NCBI RefSeq assembly: GCF_011316935.1
Contig: NZ_WLYS01000002.1
Span: forward strand, 558,001 to 622,000
DNA: 64,000 nt
Source of the DNA: Sphingobacterium chungjuense
Lineage (GTDB): Bacteria > Bacteroidota > Bacteroidia > Sphingobacteriales > Sphingobacteriaceae
Direction of reading: 5' to 3'
Positions 42,343 to 50,876 of this stretch are shown in pieces. Below the pieces are notes generated by a model, which was not told the origin of the DNA, did no database searches, and was given only the letters and a program-made list of their open reading frames with translations. The first letter of the stretch is position 1; every line of letters starts with the position of its first letter. Both the position numbers and the translations under genes were made by a program.

Positions 42343-42423
42343 CCATTACGAAGATCCACATAAAGGCTTCAGATGAAGTTGAGTTACATTTTATTTATTT
42401 TAAAATTTAATAACCGTATAATT

Positions 42424-43578
42424 ATGAAGAATTTCATCCTACCTTCCATCTGCTTCTTGGTGTTTCTTTACTCTTGTGAGAAAAAACAAGAATTTATAGA
42501 TACTAATACATCCACTGAATCAATCAGTACCGACGCCAAAGGCGCACTCATCACTAAGTTTGATCCCAGTATCGGTTTAGCAAATGATTTGTATAATAGA
42601 CTCGGTCCGCACCAAGTATCTACTACGGGCACCAGACTAGATTGTTCAGGATTTGCTGGAACGATTCAAAGAGTGTTAGCAGCATTACGTTTTATAGACC
42701 CTGGCGTGAGATGTAGCCCTTCATTTCCATATGGGTTTGAGGATAGACGCGTAACGGAAGTTTTTTACCCATCAAACATCCAATCACTAGAGAATGTGCC
42801 TGTGATCAGTTTCGTAGGCGGTCTTGTTTCCAATCAGGGTAATTACGATGCATTAATCAGATTGTGGACCAGTTATGGATTTGTGGTGGTTAATAGCAAC
42901 AATTTTATCAATTTCAATCCGTCGCTACATGTTACTGGTCTTTTAGAAATCGTTGCACAGAACAGCAATCCACAGTCACCTTTATACAACAAACTGGATC
43001 TGTCCAAGGTTCAAGTATCAGGGCATTCGGCCGGAGGATCGGGCGCGTTATCTATTACTTCAAAGACAGAGAAGATAATACAATCTATTCATCCTTCGCT
43101 CAGAATAATTGGATCTTTCCCACTGCAACCTAGCTTTGCCGCCAGTGGTAATAATGTCAATGTACCGACTCTGCTATTAACTGGCCAGTACGACGTGCTT
43201 GTACCACCCACCACATTTCCACTCAAAAATCAGTATCAGAAGATTAGCAGCGCACCTGCGTGGTTCGTATCTACCAAAAACTCCAATCACCTTACACCAA
43301 CTTTAGAACTGGCACGAAACGATTATGCTGGTATAACAGTTGCATGGATATTATACAATGCTAAAAATGATGTTGCTGCATCGCGATTTTTCGTAGGCCC
43401 AGCTTATAGATCTCTTGAAGATCCAGCATTCACCCAAGCAGGAGATTTACCACTGGCAGTTTACAGACCCAGCAAACCATCCGAATACCTGAAGACCGGC
43501 GAACCTTTTGTACTTGTAAAGCCAAACCCAACCCGAGTACAGCGAAACAGTCGTGCTAATGCACTAAAATCGCTTTAA
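42424..43578 (+). CDS. Secreted alpha/beta-hydrolase lipoprotein, array copy 3
   Basis: A 384-residue paralogue closest to copy 1 (both have FPYGF, DRRVTE, YPSNIQSL and SPLYNK blocks). From ATG 42424 the signal ends FLYSC, followed by EKKQE; an in-frame ATG at 42373 would bury the signal behind 17 residues. Triad: Ser202 in GHSAGG, Asp257 in TGQYDVLVPP and His289 in SNHLTP. Conserved cysteines lie in LDCSG and VRCSP. It has about 30 extra C-terminal residues rich in Pro, Arg and Lys that the others lack. Confidence 0.82.
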   Translation: MKNFILPSICFLVFLYSCEKKQEFIDTNTSTESISTDAKGALITKFDPSIGLANDLYNRLGPHQVSTTGTRLDCSGFAGTIQRVLAALRFIDPGVRCSPSFPYGFEDRRVTEVFYPSNIQSLENVPVISFVGGLVSNQGNYDALIRLWTSYGFVVVNSNNFINFNPSLHVTGLLEIVAQNSNPQSPLYNKLDLSKVQVSGHSAGGSGALSITSKTEKIIQSIHPSLRIIGSFPLQPSFAASGNNVNVPTLLLTGQYDVLVPPTTFPLKNQYQKISSAPAWFVSTKNSNHLTPTLELARNDYAGITVAWILYNAKNDVAASRFFVGPAYRSLEDPAFTQAGDLPLAVYRPSKPSEYLKTGEPFVLVKPNPTRVQRNSRANALKSL

Positions 43579-43822: not shown

Positions 43823-44866
43823 ATGAAAAATTTAATTTTAATTTTACCACTAGTACTATTCCTTTCTTCTTGCCAGAAAGATGAAGAACCTCTAACCACG
43901 CAAGCGCTAGGCGACAAATCTAAAGCCTCTGCAATAGTGAACGCCTTTGGTCTAGCTAATGCGGAGTACAGCAAATTGGGACCATACGAGGTAGCGACCA
44001 ATGCGGTAAGAGGAGATTGTAGGCAATTAGTCGGTATAGCTTCAAAAGTGTTAGCGAGTCTCAAATTAATTAATCCCGAAGTGCGATGTAGTCCCGCATT
44101 TCCTTATGGTTTCGAACAAAATTTTTCTACCGAAGCATTTTATCCAGCCAATATTCAATCATTAGAAAAAATACCGGTTATCAATTTTGTAGGTGGTATT
44201 CTATCTAATCAGGGACACTATGAAGCATTAGCAACATTATGGGCCAGTTACGGTTTTGTGGTCATTAATTCTAACAATTTTATAAACACGGTACCTACGA
44301 TGCATATTTACGGTGCGATCGAGGCCTCCAAATTAAACGATGACCCCCTATCTCCGCTCTATAATAAGATTGATTTGACAAAGATGATTGTAGCTGGTCA
44401 TTCCGCTGGAGGTGGAGCGAGCATACTTACGTCGAGTTTATCACAAAAAGCATTAGACATCATTGACCCCAGATTAAGAATACTTGGATCATTACCGATA
44501 CAACCCGGCCCGCTTGCCATTGGCACCACTGTTAAACACCCTACATTTATAATCACAGGCGAGCTGGACCTTATTGTTTCACCACTTTTATGGCCCAATC
44601 TATGGCAATCTAATCTCATAAAGAGAGTTCCCTCTTGGATAGCAACAGCAAGATTTGCTACGCATTTTAGTCCGACACTCGACATTCAAAGAAACGAATT
44701 TGCTGGCATTTCGGTCGCGTGGATGCTCTACCAAGGAAAAAATGACGAAAGCGCATCTCGATATTTTGTTGGCACCGATTATTTACTACAATCAGATCCA
44801 CAATTTATCCAAGGTACGTTGAATCCTCTGCGAGTGCAACGGAATAACTTAGCAGATAGATTATAG
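43823..44866 (+). CDS. Secreted alpha/beta-hydrolase lipoprotein, array copy 4
   Basis: A 347-residue paralogue. The signal ends FLSSC and is followed by QKDEE, which fits the lipoprotein export signal (Lys plus acidic residues just after the lipid Cys) defined in Capnocytophaga, so surface display is likely. Triad: Ser194 in GHSAGG, Asp249 in TGELDLIVSP and His281 in THFSP. Family blocks KLGPYEVAT, NFVGGILSNQGHYEAL and SYGFVVINSNNF are intact, with cysteines in GDCRQ and VRCSP. Its own promoter must lie in the 164 bases after the copy 3 terminator. Confidence 0.82.
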   Translation: MKNLILILPLVLFLSSCQKDEEPLTTQALGDKSKASAIVNAFGLANAEYSKLGPYEVATNAVRGDCRQLVGIASKVLASLKLINPEVRCSPAFPYGFEQNFSTEAFYPANIQSLEKIPVINFVGGILSNQGHYEALATLWASYGFVVINSNNFINTVPTMHIYGAIEASKLNDDPLSPLYNKIDLTKMIVAGHSAGGGASILTSSLSQKALDIIDPRLRILGSLPIQPGPLAIGTTVKHPTFIITGELDLIVSPLLWPNLWQSNLIKRVPSWIATARFATHFSPTLDIQRNEFAGISVAWMLYQGKNDESASRYFVGTDYLLQSDPQFIQGTLNPLRVQRNNLADRL

Positions 44867-45925: not shown

Positions 45926-46264
45926 GGAAACAAAATTGGAACGCTGAACTAGGAACATCTCCAAAATCAATAAAAAAACAGGCGATTAAACGAGTTAATA
46001 TTTTAAAATTATTTATAAAAAAATAGATGTTATTATAGGAAATTTTTACACTTAAAAATTCGATATTTTTTGAAAAAATACATAGCATAAAACAAACAAA
46101 AAATGATATTCAAGTATATTAAACCACATTTAGTATATTTTTAAGGTTATTTTAATCAAAAATAACATCCAAAAAAACCTCTAAAAATATGCAATTATAG
46201 ACCTAAAAAAACAGCAATAAAAGGTATAAATAAACATCAAATAATATAAAAATTTCAAATTATT
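45926..46264. other. Very AT-rich stretch upstream of the aromatic operon leader
   Basis: About 340 bases with runs of A and T and almost no G or C between 46000 and 46260. No gene or clean repeat is visible. It could act as upstream promoter DNA or bind nucleoid proteins. Confidence 0.5.
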
Positions 46265-46294
46265 TTGCAGTTATCAATTTTTGCATTACTTTTG
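46265..46294 (+). promoter_or_regulatory. Promoter of the aromatic amino acid operon
   Basis: TTG (46265-46267), a spacer of exactly 19 bases, then TACTTTTG (46287-46294). Both elements and the spacing match the Bacteroidota housekeeping promoter. Transcription should start near 46300, some 12 bases before the leader peptide ATG. Confidence 0.8.
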
Positions 46295-46311
46295 GAAACA
46301 GAACGAGACAA

Positions 46312-46365
46312 ATGAACAGATTTTATACACAACCGTATTTTAGCTTTTTTTATTATCACGAATAA
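46312..46365 (+). CDS. Phe/Tyr-rich leader peptide of the aromatic operon
   Basis: A 17-codon reading frame, MNRFYTQPYFSFFYYHE, with four Phe and four Tyr residues. It starts about 12 bases after the predicted transcription start and ends 40 bases before a terminator. This is the layout of an attenuation leader: ribosome stalling at Phe or Tyr codons when charged tRNA is scarce would favour an antiterminator. Comparable to PheL of enterobacteria in logic, not in sequence. The frame is too short for a similarity test here; the composition and position are the evidence. Confidence 0.8.
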   Translation: MNRFYTQPYFSFFYYHE

Positions 46366-46370
46366 TAAGG

Positions 46371-46439
46371 GGGATACTATTGTGTACGTACTATAAAAGT
46401 AAACAGAGGTCCCGAAGCAACACGGGGCCTCTTTTTTTT
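46371..46439 (+). promoter_or_regulatory. Attenuator: terminator and possible antiterminator before pheA
   Basis: A 10-base-pair stem (46405-46414 with 46423-46432, one T-G wobble, 8-base loop) followed by eight T, ending 12 bases before the pheA ATG. It is a terminator placed before the first structural gene, not after a gene. GGGAT (46371-46375), just after the leader stop, can pair with GTCCC (46409-46413) of the 5' arm and would open the terminator; this alternative is weak and inferred. Confidence 0.75.
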
Positions 46440-46451
46440 GACTAAATCCAC

Positions 46452-47285
46452 ATGGAATCAGAAAAATTAAAGATTGCGATACAAGGCGTAAAAGGCTCTT
46501 TTCACGAAGAGGCCGCTTATAAATACTTTGGCAATGATATTGAGACATTGGAGTGTGAATCCTTCAAAAGGACCTGCGAACTGCTCAAACAAGGCAAAGC
46601 GGACTATGTAGTCATGGCCATTGAAAACTCCATTGCTGGAAGCATCCTGCCAAACTACAACCTATTGCGCGATTATCGCTTTCACATTTTAGGCGAAGTA
46701 CACCTGCATATCCAGCAACACTTGCTGGCACTACCAGGTACTAAGTTGGCCGACATTAAATTTGTAGAATCGCATCCTATTGCCATTCGCCAATGCGACG
46801 AATTTTTGAGCGAACACCCAGAGTGGATTGTGAAAGAAGGTATGGACACCGCCTCTAGTGCGCAAAATATCGTTTCTGAAAAGCTAGCCAACACAGCTGC
46901 CATCGCTGGAGAGGCTGCCGCAAAGATCTATGGCCTAGAAATTATCGAACGCCGCATAGAAACGAACAAAAAGAATGCAACACGCTTCTTAATTCTTTCC
47001 AACGACGTGGTCGAACAGAAGAATGCAAACAAAGCATCCCTCTCTTTCCAAACGGGCAATGCCGTCGGTTCATTGGCTATTATCTTACAATGCTTCGCTG
47101 AGCAAAATGTGAATCTCAGCAAGATCCAATCCATGCCAGTCGTGGGCAAGCGGAATGAATACGACTTCTATGTTGATGTAGAATGGAAGAAACAGTCGGA
47201 TTATGACGCAGCGATCCGCAAAGTATTGAAGCACTCCGTGAATTTTAACATCATGGGCGAATACATTAAAAACGAACGCGTTTAA
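46452..47285 (+). CDS. pheA: Prephenate dehydratase
   Basis: A 277-residue enzyme converting prephenate to phenylpyruvate, the last specific step to phenylalanine before transamination. The PDT domain runs about 5-190 with GVKGSFHEEAAYKYF, MAIENSIAGSILPNYN and the TRFLIL motif; the C-terminal ACT domain (about 197-277) contains GSLAIILQCFAEQNVNLSKI and the GKRNEYDFYVDVE block and probably binds Phe for feedback inhibition. There is no chorismate mutase domain here; that activity is fused to the next gene. It is the first gene after the Phe/Tyr attenuator. Confidence 0.96.
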   Translation: MESEKLKIAIQGVKGSFHEEAAYKYFGNDIETLECESFKRTCELLKQGKADYVVMAIENSIAGSILPNYNLLRDYRFHILGEVHLHIQQHLLALPGTKLADIKFVESHPIAIRQCDEFLSEHPEWIVKEGMDTASSAQNIVSEKLANTAAIAGEAAAKIYGLEIIERRIETNKKNATRFLILSNDVVEQKNANKASLSFQTGNAVGSLAIILQCFAEQNVNLSKIQSMPVVGKRNEYDFYVDVEWKKQSDYDAAIRKVLKHSVNFNIMGEYIKNERV

Positions 47286-47321
47286 ATAATTTATCAGAAA
47301 AAAAATAAAAACATATATACG

Positions 47322-48428
47322 ATGAAACATTCATTAGACATCTTGCCATTAAGTTCTTGGATTGATACAGGCGACAAGCCATTGGTAATTGCGGGACCTT
47401 GTAGTGCCGAGACCGAAGAACAAGTAGTATCTACAGCACATTTATTGGCTAACACAGGTAAAGTACACGTGCTACGCGCCGGAATCTGGAAACCACGCAC
47501 TCGTCCAGGAGAATTTGAAGGAATCGGAAGCATTGGTTTGGAGTGGTTGAAAAGAGCGAAAGCAGAAACAGGACTTCCGACAGCGACTGAAGTAGCTACC
47601 GCAAAACATGTGGAAGAAGCTTTAGCAGCAGGTATAGATGTCTTGTGGATTGGCGCGCGTTCTACCGCAAACCCATTCACTGTACAGGAAATTGCCGATG
47701 CATTGCAAGGAGTAGATGTTCCAGTAATTGTCAAAAACCCAGTAAATCCAGATTTATCACTATGGATTGGTGCTTTGGAGCGCGTAAACCGTGCCGGTAT
47801 TAAGAAATTAGCGGCTATCCACCGTGGATTCTCTTCTTTCGAGAAAACCGCTTTCCGTAACGAACCGATGTGGGATATTGCGATCCAATTGAAATCCATC
47901 GCACCAGAATTGCCTATCATCAACGATCCAAGTCATATCTGTGGCAATCGTGAATTGCTACCATACATCTCTCAAAAAGCATTGGATATGGATATGCAAG
48001 GTTTAATCATAGAATCACACATTGATCCGTCGGTAGCTTGGACAGATGCTAAACAGCAATTAACGCCGGGAGCATTAGCAGATATGTTAAGCAATATTGC
48101 AGTTCGTCATGCAGAGTCTAACAACCCTGCATTCGAAGATAAACTATCGGAATTGCGTCAGAACATCGACAAATTGGATAACGACATCATCAAAATGATT
48201 GGCGACCGTATGAAAATCGCAGAAAAAATTGGCGAATACAAACGTGATAACAACGTCACCATCTTACAAGTTAACCGTTGGGACGAAATCGTACAAAAAC
48301 GTGTTCAATTAGCCAAAGCATTGAACATCGGTGAAGACTTCGCGGTGAAATATTTAGAGTTATTGCACAACGAATCTATACGCAAGCAAAACGAGGTAAT
48401 GAACAGCAAAACGATTGCAGAAGCATAA
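47322..48428 (+). CDS. Bifunctional DAHP synthase / chorismate mutase
   Basis: A 368-residue fusion. Residues 1-265 are a 3-deoxy-7-phosphoheptulonate synthase of the short KDO8P-like class: VIAGPCSAETEEQVVST, then RAGIWKPRTRPGEFEGIG and INDPSHICGNRELL. Residues about 270-360 are a type II (AroQ) chorismate mutase: LSELRQNIDKLDNDIIKMIG, RMKIAEKIGEYKRDNN and LELLHNESIRKQNEV. The fusion couples entry into the shikimate pathway to the branch toward prephenate. It follows pheA after 36 bases and its stop shares a base with the aroA start (TAATG). Confidence 0.95.
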   Translation: MKHSLDILPLSSWIDTGDKPLVIAGPCSAETEEQVVSTAHLLANTGKVHVLRAGIWKPRTRPGEFEGIGSIGLEWLKRAKAETGLPTATEVATAKHVEEALAAGIDVLWIGARSTANPFTVQEIADALQGVDVPVIVKNPVNPDLSLWIGALERVNRAGIKKLAAIHRGFSSFEKTAFRNEPMWDIAIQLKSIAPELPIINDPSHICGNRELLPYISQKALDMDMQGLIIESHIDPSVAWTDAKQQLTPGALADMLSNIAVRHAESNNPAFEDKLSELRQNIDKLDNDIIKMIGDRMKIAEKIGEYKRDNNVTILQVNRWDEIVQKRVQLAKALNIGEDFAVKYLELLHNESIRKQNEVMNSKTIAEA

Positions 48429-49687
48429 TGAGCGACCTCCAAAAAGTCTCCTTATCACATGCTAACAAGACAATAAGCGGAACGGTAGTGCTCACGGGTT
48501 CAAAATCCGAGAGCAACCGCGCCCTTATCATTCAAGCCCTTAGTCAAGGTAGTGTTAGCGTGGCTAATCTTTCGGAAGCAGCCGATACCGTCACCATGAG
48601 CGAAGCACTTGCTATCGCAAGCGATTCGTCTGCCACAGGCGATCGTACAAAGATTGACATTGGGCCTGCTGGCACAGCAATGCGATTCCTGACTTCGTTC
48701 TTGAGTTTATCCGCAGGATCATTTGAACTAACGGGCAGCGCACGCATGCAAGAACGCCCAATCAAGTTATTGGTAGATGCTTTGCAAACTATCGGCGCTA
48801 AAATCAGCTACGCAGCAAAAGAAGGTTATCCGCCACTACATATTGATGGAACATTTGAGCAAACGGCGACGAAGGTTTCGATTCCAGGCGACATCAGTAG
48901 TCAATACATTTCCTCGTTGTTGCTTATCGCAGCTGCACTACCAAAAGGATTGAACCTTCAAATAGCAGGTGAGCTCACTTCGAAGCCATATGTGAGCATG
49001 ACACTAGATATGCTGCGCGAATCAGGCATTGAATACCAATGGAATGAGCAAACGATTAGTATTCCGGCGCAATCATTTGGCGCGGCTACACTCTATGTAG
49101 AGCCTGATTGGAGCGCTGCTTCTTATTGGTATGCTATGGTTGCTTTGGCAAAAGAGGGCTCTCTTTTCTTACCAGGCTTGAAGAAAAGCAGTTTACAAGG
49201 AGATATTGCCATTGCTAATATCATGACGCATTTTGGTGTACATACCACCTTTGAAGAAGGTGGTATTACATTACAAAAAAGTACGTTGACTGGCGATCCG
49301 GTTTTTCTAGATTTAAAAGAATGTCCTGATTTGGCACAGACCATTGTCGTCATCGCAGCAGCACTGCGAATCCCGACTACTTTTACGGGACTAGAAACCT
49401 TGAAGATTAAAGAAACAGATCGTATCGCCGCTTTGCAGAACGAAATTGGAAAATTCGGCTGTAAATTGCACGAAGATAATGAGATCTACACATTGGATAC
49501 GGAAGGCTATTTTGCACCTAAAGAGTTAGTGATCGCAACATACGAAGATCATCGTATGGCGATGGCCTTTGCGCCACTTGCCCTTCATTTTCCGCAAGTT
49601 ACGGTAGAAGAGCCAGCGGTAGTCAACAAGTCTTACCCAGACTTTTGGCAACACTTACAGGATCAGCAATTCAACCTAGTTTGGTAA
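48428..49687 (+). CDS. aroA: 3-phosphoshikimate 1-carboxyvinyltransferase (EPSP synthase)
   Basis: A 419-residue shikimate-pathway enzyme joining PEP to shikimate-3-phosphate. Recognisable segments are LTGSKSESNRALIIQALSQG at the N-terminus, GPAGTAMRFLTSFLS (PEP site), IPGDISSQYISSLLL, LKECPDLAQTIVVIAAALRI, then LKIKETDRIAALQNEI and YEDHRMAMAFAPLAL. Length is slightly below the E. coli enzyme. The TAATG overlap with the preceding gene indicates translational coupling. Confidence 0.95.
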   Translation: MSDLQKVSLSHANKTISGTVVLTGSKSESNRALIIQALSQGSVSVANLSEAADTVTMSEALAIASDSSATGDRTKIDIGPAGTAMRFLTSFLSLSAGSFELTGSARMQERPIKLLVDALQTIGAKISYAAKEGYPPLHIDGTFEQTATKVSIPGDISSQYISSLLLIAAALPKGLNLQIAGELTSKPYVSMTLDMLRESGIEYQWNEQTISIPAQSFGAATLYVEPDWSAASYWYAMVALAKEGSLFLPGLKKSSLQGDIAIANIMTHFGVHTTFEEGGITLQKSTLTGDPVFLDLKECPDLAQTIVVIAAALRIPTTFTGLETLKIKETDRIAALQNEIGKFGCKLHEDNEIYTLDTEGYFAPKELVIATYEDHRMAMAFAPLALHFPQVTVEEPAVVNKSYPDFWQHLQDQQFNLVW

Positions 49688-49720
49688 TCATTCCGAAGAT
49701 TACTACCACATCATTATAAA

Positions 49721-49759
49721 TAATTCGGCATCAAAAGTTATATTTTTGATGCCGAATTA
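49721..49759. repeat. Perfect 16-base inverted repeat between aroA and aroC
   Basis: Arms at 49721-49736 and 49744-49759 (TAATTCGGCATCAAAA), 7-base loop. It lies in the 97-base gap between aroA and aroC, 26 bases before the aroC ATG. No T-run follows on the plus strand, so it is not a clear terminator; RNA processing or partial termination are possible. Confidence 0.75.
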
Positions 49760-49784
49760 ATATATTTACAACCTAAACTTAACT

Positions 49785-50876
49785 ATGGCAGGAAATTCTT
49801 TTGGCGATCTGTTCCGCATCACAACATATGGTGAATCTCACGGGAAAGCTATTGGCGTAATTATAGACGGATGTCCGTCGCAGATTGATATTGATGAAGA
49901 ATTCATTCAGTCGGAGTTGGACAAACGTAAACCGGGACAATCTAAAATTACTACACAACGAAAAGAAAGCGATATCGCACAGATCTTGTCGGGTGTATTC
50001 GAAGGAAAATCTACGGGCACTCCCATTGCAATCAATATTCCTAACGAAGATCAGCGATCCAAAGATTACTCGCATATCAAAGATAAGTTTCGCCCTTCGC
50101 ATGCAGATTACACCTATCAGGTGAAATACGGCATTCGCGATTATCGCGGTGGTGGCCGGTCTTCGGCACGCGAAACTGCCGCACGTGTGGCAGCGGGAGC
50201 CATTGCCAAACTATTCTTAAAGCAACATGGCATTGAAATCCTTGCCCATGTTTCTGGTGTAGGCCAATTGGAAGCACCAAACCTCGATGTATCTGATCTG
50301 ACGGAATTAGTCAAACTGCGCGAGAGCAATATCGTGCGATGTGCTGATCCGGCTACCGCCGCAGAAATGATCGAATTTATCGACCAAGTTCGTAAGAATG
50401 GCGACACCGTTGGCGGAAGAATATCTACTGTAATTCGTGGGTTACCAGTCGGACTGGGTGAACCCGTATTCGACAAGCTACATGCCGATTTGGGCAAAGC
50501 TATGCTCAGTATTAATGCGGTGCATGGATTTGAATATGGATCTGGATTTGTCGGTTCTGAAATGCTGGGCTCGGAGCACAATGATATTTTCATCGCCGAA
50601 GAAGGCCAGCCAACTCGCACCAAAACGAATTTTTCTGGCGGTATACAAGGTGGTTTATCCAATGGGATGGACATTACTTTTCGCACTGCTTTTAAACCCG
50701 TGGCCACGATTATGCGTGACCAAGCTACTATCGACGAAAGTGGTAGCGAAACAACTATATCCGGCAAAGGCCGACATGATCCATGTGTGGTACCACGCGC
50801 GGTGATTATCGTAGAAGCGATGGCTGCCTTGGTGATTGCCGATCATTTATTAAAATACCAATCTAATGCGCGATAA
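49785..50876 (+). CDS. aroC: Chorismate synthase
   Basis: A 363-residue flavin-dependent enzyme that makes chorismate from EPSP. The N-terminus [20 protein letters not shown], then [40 protein letters not shown] and the C-terminal [12 protein letters not shown] are the signatures of the family. Length is normal. The ROK kinase downstream overlaps its end by 11 bases, so the two are cotranslated. Confidence 0.97.

Follow-up and report, generated by a model that had tools for sequence, protein, structure and literature searches.

The short stretch of DNA in front of pheA in Sphingobacterium chungjuense raises the question of whether a ribosome translating an aromatic-rich leader peptide decides if the operon behind it is transcribed, how widely such a leader is shared, and why it holds codons for both phenylalanine and tyrosine. 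On the sequence comparisons and RNA folding models presented here, we consider it very probable that the element is a ribosome-mediated transcription attenuator sensing Phe and Tyr. The window is the whole stretch of 64,000 nucleotides that was analysed, and all coordinates refer to it. The operon consists of the following genes:

46452–47285, + strand: pheA, prephenate dehydratase, the first gene of the operon (best NCBIfam match PRK11898 at 198.6 bits, just below the cut-off of 219)
47322–48428, + strand: DAHP synthase/chorismate mutase fusion of the aroG-CM type (its best matches are those models, below the equivalog cut-offs)
48428–49687, + strand: aroA, EPSP synthase (TIGR01356, above cut-off)
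49785–50876, + strand: aroC, chorismate synthase (TIGR00033, above cut-off)

Upstream of pheA lie three elements:

46264–46294, + strand: Bacteroidota-type promoter, identified from sequence and pattern, with -33 element TTTG (46264–46267), a 19-nt spacer and -7 element TACTTTTG (46287–46294)
46312–46365, + strand: leader peptide ORF MNRFYTQPYFSFFYYHE followed by TAA, with 17 codons (46312–46362, four Phe and four Tyr) and the stop at 46363–46365
46405–46439, + strand: intrinsic terminator (segments 3:4), with stem 46405–46414/46423–46432, loop 46415–46422 and eight T at 46432–46439

The initial annotation had described this promoter, a 17-codon peptide with eight Phe or Tyr residues, and a terminator of 10 bp whose eight T end 12 bases before pheA, all of which are present in the sequence. 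The promoter is an exact match to TTTG-N19-TAnnTTTG, a pattern that by itself occurs at chance level in the 64-kb window (4 seen vs 2.8 expected); a TAnnTTTG box lies at a comparable distance from the leader in nearly all relatives. Transcription is predicted to start at ~46298–46301, which would give a 5'UTR of ~11–14 nt. A sigma-70 promoter scan found nothing relevant, because Bacteroidota use a different promoter consensus. The leader stop is directly followed by a second in-frame TAA (46366–46368). When the upstream 500 bp were dinucleotide-shuffled, a short ATG ORF reached the aromatic density of the leader in 0.3% of shuffles (p = 0.003), and the leader is the sole short ATG ORF of such density on either strand of the window. 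Seven of the 10 bp of the terminator stem are G-C (the terminator search found 1 vs 0.4 expected), and the leader RNA as a whole is more stable than its shuffles (z = -3.5).

The geometry of the locus bears on one alternative, namely that the leader affects the translation of pheA, by reinitiation or coupling, rather than its transcription. Short upstream ORFs have been proposed to boost translation via reinitiation in several phyla (PMC4833913). However, the leader stop is 86 bases from the pheA ATG at 46452, against a peak of 11–14 for Bacteroidetes leader genes (PMC4833913), and a terminator sits between the two, which makes a translational role extremely unlikely.

We assembled a close set of 81 sequences, made up of the window and 80 loci with pheA drawn from Sphingobacteriaceae and their relatives (the nearest pheA, that of S. 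corticibacter, is 97% identical), and aligned a subset of 48. In all 81 an ORF with 7–11 aromatic residues is followed by a terminator and then by pheA. The core of the peptide is of the type T-Y-F-Y-F-x-F-F-Y-F. Its penultimate residue is Tyr in 48 of 48 aligned sequences (codon TAT in 32 and TAC in 16), and the remaining aromatic positions swap F and Y and occasionally W. Of the 2714 codon differences in the core that alter the amino acid, 1084 are such F/Y/W swaps, and third positions are the most variable. Judged from these comparisons, the pattern looks like selection for an aromatic codon at each position and not for the protein. This matters for the alternative that the peptide is itself a functional product, such as a membrane micropeptide. 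Its conservation and hydrophobicity would fit such a role, but what is conserved is the content of aromatic codons, with free exchange among F, Y and W and with variable ends and lengths, and the ORF is located before pheA in the company of a terminator and an antiterminator; we therefore give a functional peptide next to no probability.

No Shine-Dalgarno motif is evident at the leader starts of the 81 close sequences. An A occupies position -3 in 53 of the 81, and positions -9 to -12 are A-rich, in agreement with the start context described for F. johnsoniae (A-3 and A-12/-13; PMC6847099). Predicted 5'UTRs are ~8–15 nt in the close set and near zero in some families. In six more distant loci (L153, L154, L120, L140, L155 and L119) the leader starts only 4–8 nt past the TAnnTTTG box, and these peptides are predicted to be near-leaderless.

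An attenuator of this kind needs an alternative to the terminator, and the leader RNA offers two further sets of pairings, whose parts are as follows:

46326–46332, + strand: outer arm of segment 1, UACACAA, pairing with 46380–46386 (MFE fold; the equivalent helix is double-changed in relatives)
46350–46365, + strand: inner 1:2 hairpin, in which UUAUU (46350–46354) pairs with AAUAA (46361–46365), made up of the final Tyr codons and the region of the stop (MFE fold)
46371–46387, + strand: segment 2, the 5' side of the antiterminator, with core GGGAU at 46371–46375 (ribosome-stalled pre-terminator folds and aligned-helix covariation)
46380–46386, + strand: UUGUGUA, the 3' partner of segment 1, within segment 2 (MFE fold and double changes)
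46405–46414, + strand: segment 3, the 5' arm of the terminator, AGAGGUCCCG, with GUCCC (46409–46413) as the antiterminator partner of segment 2

Pairing and double changes were tallied for each of the three helices on its own in the 48-sequence alignment. The terminator is paired in 94% of cells, with 54 double-changed cells; the antiterminator, GCCGGGAUU with AAGUCCCGG, is 86% paired, with 9 double-changed cells in 4 pairs; and the 1:2 structure, ACAUAU with AUAUGU and CUUUUAUU with AAUAAGAG, is likewise 86% paired, with 40 double-changed cells. The aligned inner 1:2 helix (8 bp, 95% paired) includes 14 double changes from U-A to C-G, all at the invariant Tyr codon, whose silent third base changes along with its partner. 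For each helix, none of 500 shuffles matches the observed pairing or covariation score, in a test that kinship among the sequences inflates, and shifting the partner abolishes the pairing signal of all three. Covariation of 2:3 is the weakest, with few independent changes behind it. In S. faecium (L051), segments 2, 3 and 4 have co-changed to GGAAC/GUUCC/GGAAC such that both alternative helices are preserved, and a relative of it (L058) carries the wobble intermediate GGGAC/GUUCC. In the window itself the ungapped 5-bp antiterminator core GGGAU does no better than shuffles (p = 0.56), and its antiterminator, when folded, requires interrupted flanking pairs. The initial annotation had proposed ribosome-mediated Phe/Tyr attenuation on the strength of the peptide and the terminator; both are conserved with covariation, as is an antiterminator that it did not name.

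The spacing between peptide and RNA is equally constant. In 81 of 81 sequences the distance from the last aromatic codon of the peptide core, counted from its first base, to the start of the antiterminator core is 12–17 nt, which in the model puts the antiterminator core beyond the leading edge of a ribosome stalled on that codon. The antiterminator core also lies at -27 to +8 of the leader stop in all 81, and a ribosome on the stop codon therefore covers the antiterminator. We simulated the folding of the transcript as far as segment 3 while barring the bases under the ribosome from pairing; the footprint was assumed, as in E. coli, to reach 12 nt beyond the first base of the A site. In this simulation segment 3 pairs with upstream RNA with a mean probability of 0.96 for a ribosome on an aromatic codon vs 0.08 for one on the stop; pairing is higher for the stalled ribosome in 81 of 81 sequences, with simulated values for the window of 0.97 vs 0.29. 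Before segment 4 exists, ribosome-free RNA also prefers 2:3 when simulated (0.79 for the window, 0.90 on average), and the 1:2 protector helix covaries, yet the ribosome-free fold favours 2:3. In such folds, the classical branch in which absence of translation means termination is not supported by folding energies alone. At equilibrium the full-length RNA always favours the terminator, and the switch must therefore be kinetic.

The same equilibrium preference, together with a terminator that is strong by itself, is what could be expected if the terminator were constitutive or controlled by a protein or small molecule (a TyrR-like factor, a riboswitch or a T-box) and the ORF were incidental. 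Against this stand the conservation of the ORF at the codon level, with aromatic positions exchanging mainly aromatics, the fixed 12–17-nt spacing from aromatic codon to antiterminator, and an Rfam scan of the whole window that returned no match at the gathering threshold, T-boxes and riboswitches included. Such control of the terminator, with an incidental ORF, is very unlikely.

Under ribosome-mediated attenuation, RNA polymerase would start ~12 nt before the leader ORF with a ribosome trailing behind it. With ample charged tRNA-Phe and tRNA-Tyr, the ribosome would reach the tandem stops and mask segment 2 (GGGAU...), upon which segment 3 would pair with segment 4, the terminator would form, and pheA-aroG/CM-aroA-aroC would be off. 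If Phe or Tyr were scarce, the ribosome would stall on one of the eight aromatic codons and leave segment 2 free. Segment 2 would then pair with segment 3, through GGGAU/GUCCC and the pairs that flank it, before segment 4 has been transcribed, and this 2:3 antiterminator would let the polymerase read through into the operon. We infer that ribosome and polymerase are coupled in this way, that termination actually takes place, and that it responds to Phe or Tyr.

How far does the element extend? A covariance model built from the 48-sequence alignment matches the genome strongly only once, at pheA, with 85.5 bits; the next match scores 31.5 bits, and the weaker matches elsewhere in the genome (L191–L195), which score no higher than that, resemble chance hits. 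Across the order, the top match scores at least 83 bits and is directly upstream of pheA in 61 of 61 genomes. Other weak matches in relatives, among those inspected (L205–L208), are ordinary terminators with a similar sequence. When 80 pheA upstream regions from 28 families were inspected, 65 had at least five aromatic residues in eight together with a terminator, one of them (L124) borderline; shuffles give an expectation of 3.1% for the ORF feature alone. A further region (L153), additional to the 65, has a qualifying aromatic ORF with a GTG start. An aromatic leader and terminator thus precede pheA in ~20 of the 28 sampled Bacteroidota families. The leader is absent where pheA directly follows an apparent aroA (L125, L133), and in one family (f12) none of four pheA upstream regions has an aromatic leader. 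One genome has a Flavo-1 RNA (RF01705, 78.6 bits) on the opposite strand, at a greater distance upstream of pheA (L126:422–499).

The covariance model reaches many other families at E < 0.001, and these matches in distant families argue for common descent over repeated invention. We somewhat favor a single ancestral attenuator for Phe and Tyr, and in many cases Trp as well, that predates the divergence of most Bacteroidia families and was kept while the operon was rebuilt, with ribosomes loading independently of a Shine-Dalgarno sequence on 5'UTRs of ~0–15 nt. If this is true, such an ancestral attenuator implies tight early coupling of transcription and translation in Bacteroidota.

The rebuilding of the operon bears on the mix of Phe and Tyr codons, which the initial annotation had regarded as unusual and which proves to be the rule across the class. 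The operon is pheA-aroG/CM-aroA-aroC in Sphingobacteriaceae (window 46452–50876) and pheA-aspC-tyrA-aroG/CM in several other families (L174–L189); in the latter, tyrA within the operon accounts for the Tyr codons and makes them natural. For the window's own genome, an explanation by tyrA within the same operon is ruled out, as aspC-tyrA lies on another contig, without an aromatic leader. The mix is best explained by the operons that hold tyrA elsewhere, and its retention in Sphingobacteriaceae plausibly reflects that DAHP synthase and chorismate mutase also feed Tyr. Trp is also present in 24 of the 65 leaders from distant regions.

Classical attenuators are known for his, leu, thr, trp, ilv and phe. 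The enterobacterial phe leader (pheL; Phe_leader, RF01859) shares with the window leader a Phe-rich peptide, alternative pairing, a terminator and a first gene with prephenate dehydratase activity. Unlike pheL, the window leader has as many Tyr as Phe codons, lacks a Shine-Dalgarno sequence and precedes an operon with aroG/CM-aroA-aroC, and it scores 22.8 bits with RF01859 against a gathering threshold of 55 (30–32 bits for the best relatives). Within the same phylum, the Bacteroid-trp leader carries a peptide with Trp codons; the pheA leader has Phe and Tyr instead and precedes different genes. Bacteroid-trp (RF01692, threshold 49 bits) has no match in the window, nor does it appear among the E <= 10 matches of the leader region.

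The initial annotation had also held that such attenuators are little documented in Bacteroidota. They are sparsely documented, but Bacteroid-trp is an existing cis-regulatory Rfam family of Bacteroidetes (PMC2864571), and a 2021 transcriptome paper reports that pheA and hisG of Flavobacteriaceae are preceded by structured 5' elements that match no Rfam family, and it gives clues of leader-peptide attenuation before amino-acid operons (PMC9723704). As described there, the pheA element of Flavobacterium psychrophilum and other Flavobacteriaceae is very likely homologous to the window leader; the main text of that paper, whose scope is the Flavobacteriaceae, gives no mechanism or peptide specific to pheA (PMC9723704). 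What is new here, at the level of comparative sequence analysis, is the evidence for a mechanism, the antiterminator, the class-wide extent and the history of the operon. A comparative study by Vitreschak et al. in 2004 (FEMS Microbiol Lett) reportedly also touched Bacteroidetes.

The element is a defined RNA that can be searched for with a model, belongs to no Rfam family at threshold and probably controls aromatic amino acid synthesis across Bacteroidia. Leader-peptide attenuation is sparsely documented in this class, and the value of the present case lies in its class-wide conservation together with initiation independent of a Shine-Dalgarno sequence. Since attenuation works only if a ribosome closely follows the polymerase, this element is a ready natural reporter both of transcription-translation coupling and of Shine-Dalgarno-independent initiation in Bacteroidota. 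The swaps of Phe, Tyr and Trp codons among lineages, along with the shifting content of the operon, make it possible to test how the choice of sensed codons follows the organization of the pathway.

The window's genome has a second candidate aromatic attenuator ahead of a trpD-like gene, in which the leader MRNYSTFKAWWWHNG, with three Trp in a row, comes together with a terminator (L198, G000:C10:302455–302582), and the lack of Trp codons in the pheA leader fits this separate Trp leader. It scores 28 bits with Bacteroid-trp, below the threshold of 49, and Rfam therefore misses it. At hisG, thrA and ilvE/D of the same genome no convincing similar attenuator was found; a His-containing ORF precedes hisG without a terminator. 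In genomes of genus g10, from the same family, a Thr/Ile leader, e.g., MNFNTSIITTIIITTGINQRG, precedes thrA (first 300 bases of L199–L204). It has the layout of the pheA leader (a peptide, a segment 2 with GCGGGGCUAAUUUGUUG and a terminator with GCGUCCCG) and scores ~44–52 bits with the pheA covariance model; it differs in its Thr and Ile codons and in its aspartokinase/homoserine dehydrogenase gene. Elsewhere in the window, 42373–43578 and 43823–44866 on the + strand form a tandem pair; the encoded proteins resemble each other, are of a secreted, alpha/beta hydrolase-like type and share a GHSAGG motif.
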